Positions 13,352 through 48,568 of a stretch of DNA of 48,568 bases are shown piece by piece. The translations under genes and the position numbers were made by a program. Positions within the stretch are counted from its first letter, which is position 1; the number at the start of each line of letters is the position of its first letter. The DNA is taken from assembly GCF_964222135.1 (NCBI RefSeq), contig NZ_CAXQBR010000007.1, positions 1 to 48,568 on the forward strand, read 5' to 3'. The notes under the pieces are model-generated. The model saw only the letters and a list, made by a program, of their open reading frames with translations, had not been told where the DNA came from and did no database searches. This stretch comes from Euzebya sp. (GTDB taxonomy: Bacteria; Actinomycetota; Nitriliruptoria; Euzebyales; Euzebyaceae).

Positions 13352-14428
13352 CTAGCGGACGACCAGGTCCGCGAACGCCGCCAGCGCTGCGTCGTGGGGC
13401 AACCGGGGATCGCACGTCGTCAGGCCCACCAGCCGCGTGACCGGTGACAGGTACCCGAGGCACGTCAGGTCGGCGTGACGGGCCTCGGGGACCGCGCGGA
13501 GCTCGACGGTGGGCATCGCCGTCAGCAGCCGGTCGTTGCCGTTGCCGACCCACTCACCGCTCCGCACCGCGATCATCGGGACGTCCAGGGCGGCGCGGGC
13601 CTCCGACGGGACCGGCTGCACCCACGGGTCGAGGCCCAGCACCCCGCGGACGCGCGGGTCACGCGCGGCGAGGGCCGTCGCGGCCCCGCCGCCGGTCGAC
13701 TGGCCGATCAGCCAGACGCCGTCGGCGCGGGGGCGGAGGGGGCTCAGCGCCCCGGCCGCCACCGCGTCCACCACGGCCTCGAGGTCCTCGGCGTAGCGCG
13801 CGACCAGCGCGGCGGTGCGGAGCCGGTAGTCCGGCGCGTCATCGGGCGGCATCAGCGTCGCCTCGAGGCCGGTGACCCGTCCGTCGGGGTGCTGTGCGGC
13901 CAGCGCACCCCCGACGTGGTCCGGGGCGACGACGATCCACCCCTCGCTGGCGAGCTGCTCGGCCAGGTCGGCGTGCATCGTCCGGAACCCCAGCCAGCCG
14001 TGGCTGATCACGACGGCGCCGCGGACCGGCCCGTCGTCCGCCGGCGTCCAGGCGGGGGTCGCGTCCGCGATCGCCGTCCCGCGGCTGCGACGGATCGGTC
14101 GCAGGGTCCAGGCCGGGATCCGGTAGCGCGCCGCGAGGGCGCGGGCCACCCCGGCGCTCGCCGGGAACAGCGGTGCGCCCGGCCCGTTCGCAGCCCGCGC
14201 GGGGTACCAGACCTGGACCGGCAGGGTCCGCGGCCCCTCCAGCTCGACGATCGTCGTGCCCACGGGGTGCGGACCGGTCGGCGGGGGCAGCGGGCTGGCA
14301 GGCGCGGCCCAGCGGACGACGCCGCCGACGCCGGCCAGCGCCCCGATGCCCGCGGCGGCGCGGCCGGGCGTGGTGACGCGGCGGCGGGATCGCGCGGGAC
14401 GTGGGTCGGGGCGTCCGTGGGTGGCCAT
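13352..14428 (-). CDS. Alpha/beta hydrolase, PAF-acetylhydrolase/dienelactone hydrolase-like
   Basis: A 358-aa esterase-type protein. After an Arg-rich start with a possible Tat-type twin arginine (RSRRRVT) and one hydrophobic stretch (about 20-40), the hydrolase domain shows VVISHGWLGFR for the oxyanion region, the nucleophile elbow GQSTGGG, LGLDPWVQP for the acidic residue, and ARHADLTCLG for the catalytic His, the order seen in bacterial PAF-acetylhydrolase-like enzymes. It is probably an exported or membrane-anchored lipase/esterase. The ATG at 14428 is chosen because the upstream extension overlaps the divergent peptidase gene and has no family match. Confidence 0.75.
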   Translation of the reverse strand: MATHGRPDPRPARSRRRVTTPGRAAAGIGALAGVGGVVRWAAPASPLPPPTGPHPVGTTIVELEGPRTLPVQVWYPARAANGPGAPLFPASAGVARALAARYRIPAWTLRPIRRSRGTAIADATPAWTPADDGPVRGAVVISHGWLGFRTMHADLAEQLASEGWIVVAPDHVGGALAAQHPDGRVTGLEATLMPPDDAPDYRLRTAALVARYAEDLEAVVDAVAAGALSPLRPRADGVWLIGQSTGGGAATALAARDPRVRGVLGLDPWVQPVPSEARAALDVPMIAVRSGEWVGNGNDRLLTAMPTVELRAVPEARHADLTCLGYLSPVTRLVGLTTCDPRLPHDAALAAFADLVVR

Positions 14429-47053: not shown

Positions 47054-48545
47054 TCAGGCCGGGTAGACGTCCAGGGTGACGGGGGAGTGGACGGGCACGT
47101 CGGCGCCGACGTCGGGGTGCTGCTGCCACACCACACCGGGGCGGGCGGCCGCGCCGGTGCACGACGCGACGCCGTCGGGGCAGCCGACGCGGACCTGGAC
47201 GGTGAACCCCTGGGACTCGAGGTTCTGGCGGGCCAGGTCGAGGGTGAGGCCGAGCACGTCGGGCACGACCGTGCCGGTGCGGTCCGCGCTCGACACCCGC
47301 AGGGTCGCGACGAACCCGTCCGGTCCGAGCACCTGCCCCGCGCCGGCGGGCGGCTCCTGGGCCAGCACCCGGCCCGGCGGGACGGTGGTGGAGTGCTCCG
47401 GCTCCTCGACGACGGTGAACCCGGCCGCGTGCAGCGCCTCGCGGGCCTCGGCCACCCCCAGCCCGGTCCCCGGCGGCACGTCGACGGTCGGCGGACCGGC
47501 GGGCTCGGCGCAGGCCGTCGTCGGCTCCGTCCCGGGCAGGTAGCTGCGCTCCCCGATCAACCGGCGCGGCGTCCACGGGTTCGGCAGGCAGTCCCGGGTC
47601 AGGTCCACGGTGACGGTGACCAGGTCGACGCCCGGCCCGGCGAAGGGCGTGGCGACGGTGTCGGCCAGCGCGGCGGTCCCGAACCGCGCGAAGATCTCCG
47701 CGGGCCAGCCGCCTCCCTGCACCTCCACCCGCGTCCGCGGGGGGACCATGGGCACACGGCCCTCGGGGAAGCCGACCCACACCGCCACGGCGAGGTCCGG
47801 GGTGTACCCGGTGAACCAGGCGTCGGCGTTGTCCTGGGACGTCCCGGTCTTCCCGGCGGTCGGACGGCCCAGCTGCGCGCCGACGCCGGTCCCCGACGCG
47901 ACGACGTCCTGCAGCGCCAACGTGACCTGCTCGGCGACGGCGGGGTCGACGACCTGCGCACCTGCCGCGTCGGGACGCTCCCAGATCACCACCCCGTCCG
48001 CGTCGGTGATCCGGCGGATGATCGAGGGGTCGTGGCGGACGCCGCCGGTCGCGAGCGTGGCGGTGGCGCCCGCCATCTCGAGGGGGCTGACCTCCTGGCT
48101 GCCGAGCGCGATCGAGCCCAGGGCGCTGAGGGGGCTGGTGATGCCGACGCGCCGGGCGACGTCGACGACGGCCTCAGGACCGATGTCGGCCACGAGCTGG
48201 GCGAAGACGGTGTTCACGCTGAGCGCCGTGGCCGTCCTGAGGGTGAGGTCGTCGTAGCCCTGACCGGCGGCGTTCGACACCTCCCACGTCCGTCCGTCGC
48301 CCAGGGGGACGGCGATCGACGCGGGCGCGGGGAGGGTGTCGGTCAGCTGCCAGCCGGCCTCCAGCGCCGCGGCCAGGACCAGGGACTTGAAGGCGGACCC
48401 GGGCTGGCGGCGCCCGTCCGTGGCCAGGTTGAAGCGCGCCACCGGGTCCAGCGGGTCGGTGTAGTCCCGACCGCCGACGAGCGCGCGGATCTCCCCGGTG
48501 GAGGGGTCGATCGCGACGACGGCCCCGCGGGGGTCCCCCGCGGGG
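47054..48545 (-). CDS. Class A penicillin-binding protein, C-terminal part (5' end off the contig)
   Basis: Partial gene; the frame stays open to the last genomic base and the N-terminus is missing. The first visible part reads GAVVAIDPSTGEIRALVGG, typical of bifunctional PBPs just before the active site. Transpeptidase motifs: S-x-x-K as PGSAFK, S-x-N as SVNTVF, and K-T-G as AGKTGTSQDNADAW. Two PASTA-like domains follow at the C-terminus (VDVPPGTGLGVAEAREALHAAG and VVPDVLGLTLDLARQNLESQG), separated from the enzyme by a short linker. The missing part would hold the membrane anchor and probably the glycosyltransferase. A GTG at 48442 is internal and not the real start. Confidence 0.93.
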
Positions 48546-48568
48546 AGATCGGAAGAGCGTCGTGTAGG
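48546..48568. other. Illumina adapter sequence at the contig end
   Basis: The last 23 bases start AGATCGGAAGAGC and continue exactly as the Illumina TruSeq-type adapter. They interrupt the penicillin-binding protein frame and are not genomic. The true sequence ends at 48545. Confidence 0.97.

Follow-up and report, generated by a model that had tools for sequence, protein, structure and literature searches.

A leftover Illumina adapter at the end of a Euzebya contig and the penicillin-binding protein gene that it adjoins

The last 23 bases of the DNA analysed here (the window, 48,568 nucleotides, which is the whole of contig C7 of the Euzebya sp. assembly G000) are almost certainly an artefact, namely a leftover Illumina adapter from read-through. 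This reading follows from the identity of the sequence to the adapter, its terminal position, its outward orientation, the occurrence of both adapter sides in G000, and its absence from the orthologue of the interrupted gene in a genome of the same genus. On this reading, the library fragment would have been shorter than the read length, so that sequencing would have passed the insert end at position 48,545 into the ligated adapter; the adapter would have been left untrimmed, and the assembler would have used this read to extend the contig to its present end. Such contamination is ordinary and has been described in print, and the tail itself offers no novel reading. It matters for data hygiene only: the 23 bases are to be trimmed, as are the tails of six more G000 contigs.

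Identity of the terminal 23 bases

The tail, AGATCGGAAGAGCGTCGTGTAGG as read from the window, occupies positions 48,546 to 48,568 on the forward strand and runs up to the last base of the contig (48,568 of 48,568). It was identical at 23 of 23 positions, with no mismatch, to the first 23 bases of the P5-side TruSeq read-through string, which bears out the claim of the first-pass annotation that the contig ends in an exact Illumina adapter. Two parts of the full P5-side string, AGATCGGAAGAG and CGTCGTGTAGGGAAAGAGTGT, are printed in PMC11536531. The 13-base core, AGATCGGAAGAGC, lies at 48,546 to 48,558 with no mismatch and was the single copy in the window when up to one mismatch was allowed, with 0.04 expected. 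At 74.7% GC, the chance of AGATCGGAAGAGCGTCGTGTAGG at any given place is about 3e-15. No Nextera adapter was found in the window at up to three mismatches. At the junction, position 48,544 opens the first codon that is wholly genomic, and base 48,545 likewise belongs to the insert; base 48,546 (A) is presumably an A-tail or an adapter base, given the library chemistry.

Adapter copies in the assembly and in other records

The assembly comprises 5,061,039 bases (5.06 Mb) in 111 contigs. The 13-base core was found in it seven times, on seven of the 111 contigs, where about 0.04 (0.042) copies were expected from composition, and all seven copies faced outward, none of them more than 41 bases from a contig end. 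The orientation was forward at the right ends of C2, C7, C29, C87, and C100 and reverse at the left ends of C76 and C102. Five of the tails continued as the P5-side adapter, exactly in C7 (23 bases), C29 (17), and C100 (25) and with one mismatch each in C87 (26 bases) and C102 (19). The other two, in C2 (41 bases) and C76 (36), continued as the P7-side adapter, of which the first 34 fixed bases were exact. These 34 bases were followed, at the place of the sample index, by AGCATAC in C2 and AG in C76; the shared AG start would be expected from the use of a single index. Taken together, the tails form the pattern left by light read-through into adapters across the genome in one paired-end library. 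A looser search with a 12-base core and one mismatch gave five more places in G000, none of them at a contig end, and the reversed control pattern gave 11, indicating that the five matches are background. The six contigs other than C7 (loci L009-L014) end in 17 to 41 adapter bases.

The same tails bear on whether the adapter was joined to genomic DNA by chimeric ligation during library preparation instead of being reached by simple read-through. The order of insert and then adapter is expected either way, and the fragment end of C7 coincides precisely with the base of an 11-bp hairpin, as chimeric ligation might have it. However, all seven tails had the normal read-through order (insert, A, adapter) and pointed outward, and none of the seven carried genomic sequence past the adapter. 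Chimeric ligation is thus very improbable, and read-through is preferred.

In other genomes, the core gave no match in the three same-genus genomes searched. Among 40 relatives (G000 not counted), it was present in five genomes as seven copies, six of which were at contig ends. The sole internal copy (G037:C257:58313-58325) was a bare 13-mer without a side-specific continuation and may be due to chance. Accordingly, the 13-mer by itself is no proof of an adapter, whereas a longer side-specific match is. In IMG/VR, the same 23-mer occurred in at least 120 stretches, at the ends of unrelated contigs, and among the matches listed 126 of 128 copies were on the expected side and no more than 200 bases from the end of the stretch. 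The earlier statement that C7 ends in an untrimmed read is consequently supported by the adapter identity, by the terminal position of all seven copies, by the orthologue without the tail, and by the IMG/VR copies.

Some further records are of note. One IMG/VR contig (3300004448_000234; L157) has a reverse-strand adapter copy at 14,343, near its right end and in inward orientation, which may come from a chimera or a concatemer and not from simple read-through. Seven GenBank phage records (PQ571273.1, KT254133.1, OU509537.1, MW202825.1, OR360270.1, PQ462667.1, and OQ703102.1) contain 32-33 adapter bases, and in two of them an annotated gene overlies the adapter, a hypothetical protein in MW202825.1 and an endonuclease in PQ462667.1. 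Plasmids gave no match to the 33-base adapter string.

In 2024, Moeller et al. described and quantified TruSeq adapter contamination at the contig extremities of microbial assemblies, involving the core and the side-specific continuations seen here; the count was 1,110 at p < 0.01 among 15,657 species assemblies from MGnify (PMC11536531). The present case resembles what is described in the relevant parts of that paper in that the core AGATCGGAAGAG is followed by CGTCGTGTAGG..., forward at the right contig end and as the reverse complement at the left, in a draft microbial assembly. Unlike the worst case given there (805 copies), G000 is only lightly affected (7 of 222 contig ends). In another paper, SKESA detected a TruSeq adaptor k-mer of 19 bases, AGATCGGAAGAGCGTCGTG, in a read set (PMC6172800). 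The C7 tail continues the core on the P5 side in the same way; in that study the adapter was in the reads before assembly, whereas here it survived into the contig.

The truncated penicillin-binding protein gene

The adapter adjoins a gene on the minus strand for a class A penicillin-binding protein (PBP), whose genuine 3' part (47,054 to 48,545) encodes the transpeptidase and PASTA regions and whose 5' side is cut by the contig end. Including the adapter, the open frame extends from 47,054 to 48,568 (504 aa) and is 5'-open. The fragment matched PF00905 (transpeptidase; E = 2.4e-37) and PF03793 (E = 1.8e-20) in Pfam. NCBIfam gave its best matches to PbpC and to models of the PBP1A type; these stayed under the model cut-offs, which is expected for a fragment.

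The PBP frame had been described as perfect up to 48,545 and then broken. This was not the case; the frame remains open across the adapter as far as the last base of C7 and reads PTRRSSDL there (48,545 to 48,568, minus strand), all of which is adapter apart from the third base of the L codon. What breaks at the junction is homology and not the reading frame. Since the frame is open, a gene caller would add PTRRSSDL without warning, and the warning in the first-pass annotation that any gene call into the last 23 bases is false holds good in that an open-ended call would add these spurious residues. Plasmids gave no match to the junction peptide, and no paper on PTRRSSDL was found in a literature search.

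The homology was followed in another genome of the genus (G003), whose orthologue is 69% identical over residues 416-911 of a 912-aa frame. The alignment opens at the first codon past the adapter, with PAGDPRG in the window vs PASDPRA in the orthologue. Opposite the PTRRSSDL of the window, the orthologue has AIDAILIA, so that the 23 bases do not carry on into the PBP gene of this relative, a continuation that had been named as what would speak against an adapter. Base 48,545 (C) agrees with the base of the orthologue, and the genomic sequence therefore plausibly ends at 48,545. The G003 gene runs on for about 327 residues N-terminally from a plausible start, which is itself inferred from the frame. 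A protein search of the genome contigs further gave five more distant PBP relatives with 35-46% identity.

These results also bear on whether the 23 bases are genomic, i.e., true upstream PBP sequence that resembles the adapter by chance. The reading frame open across them could be cited for such an origin; it removes one argument of the earlier annotation, yet does not tip the balance towards a genomic source. Against it stand the minute probability of meeting the 23-mer at one particular place, the six more terminal copies at unrelated loci, and the other residues at that place in the orthologue. A genomic origin has next to no probability left and was rejected because of the repeated terminal occurrence and the difference from the orthologue.

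With the tail taken as adapter, the predicted PBP is best annotated as a 5'-truncated fragment that omits PTRRSSDL. As the PBP frame has no stop within the adapter, adapter-derived residues can enter protein databases unflagged; such a false N-terminus from an adapter in an open frame is not discussed in the relevant parts of PMC11536531.

The break at the end of C7 and hairpins at contig ends

Directly adjoining the adapter is a perfect inverted repeat (48,523 to 48,545), with arms of 11 bp around a single central base. Its distal arm (48,535 to 48,545) could be a fold-back artefact, with the genomic end lying a few bases before 48,545. Both the position of the perfect repeat next to the adapter and the orthologue DNA, which has no such perfect repeat, would fit this, but the codons of the arm, P-A-G-(D), align with P-A-S-(D) of the orthologue, as genuine coding DNA would, and the extra base C at 48,545 is also the base of the orthologue. 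A fold-back is therefore improbable, and we regard the arm as genomic.

The hairpin may have thinned the coverage at this end of C7. We infer that thin coverage would have left one short-insert read to define the contig end, and that the GC-rich hairpin together with an rRNA operon a short way beyond, as in the relative, would have been its causes. In G003 (contig G003:C2), a complete 16S rRNA gene (L046, 5631-7151) lies just upstream of the PBP gene, divergently oriented and about 0.3 kb past the farthest possible start of the orthologue's frame. In G000, no 16S rRNA gene was found. The assembly may truly have a gap there, or the contig concerned may be masked or absent; two G000 contigs of less than 3 kb start with N.

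Nor was a partner for the trimmed contig found, as the only other G000 sequence resembling the last 86 genomic bases of C7 was a paralogous stretch (78%) in C45. A search of G000 for the missing 5' half of the PBP gene was likewise negative, since the N-terminal half of the orthologue matched other PBP genes only (40-51% identity). The N-terminal transglycosylase domain (PF00912) occurs at five places in G000, all in other long open frames, and this PBP's own N-terminal region lies beyond the contig end. Since the N-terminal half, the 16S gene, and the last 86 bases are without a match in G000, there is a gap of about 1 kb or more past the end of C7, which probably contains the rRNA operon, and trimming alone will not join C7 to another contig. 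It had been predicted that trimming and reassembly would either extend the contig or end it at 48,545. At the contig level, the second outcome would hold, as no other contig shares the last 86 genomic bases.

The other end of C7 (1 to 23) opens exactly on a perfect 10-bp inverted repeat, AGACCCGTCA GGA TGACGGGTCT, which is terminator-like. At the seven adapter-bearing ends, the longest stems within the 60 bases that precede the adapter were 11, 5, 4, 6, 6, 6, and 9 bp; taken together, these ends are not strongly enriched in hairpins.

We tentatively consider, at somewhat less than even confidence, that strong hairpins help decide where short-read assemblies of high-GC genomes break. Contig starts in G000, taken as the leading 500 bases of contigs 1-60 (out of 111), were compared with internal stretches. 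Two masked ends, the start of the window itself (which had given rise to the test), and 10 ends that had a repeat in common with an earlier end were dropped before counting, leaving 47. The starts were moderately enriched in perfect hairpins, with stems of at least 7 bp at 14 of these 47 starts vs 31 of 282 internal stretches (p about 0.001, exploratory). With stems of at least 8, 9, and 10 bp, the p values were 0.022, 0.009, and 0.022, respectively, uncorrected across thresholds.
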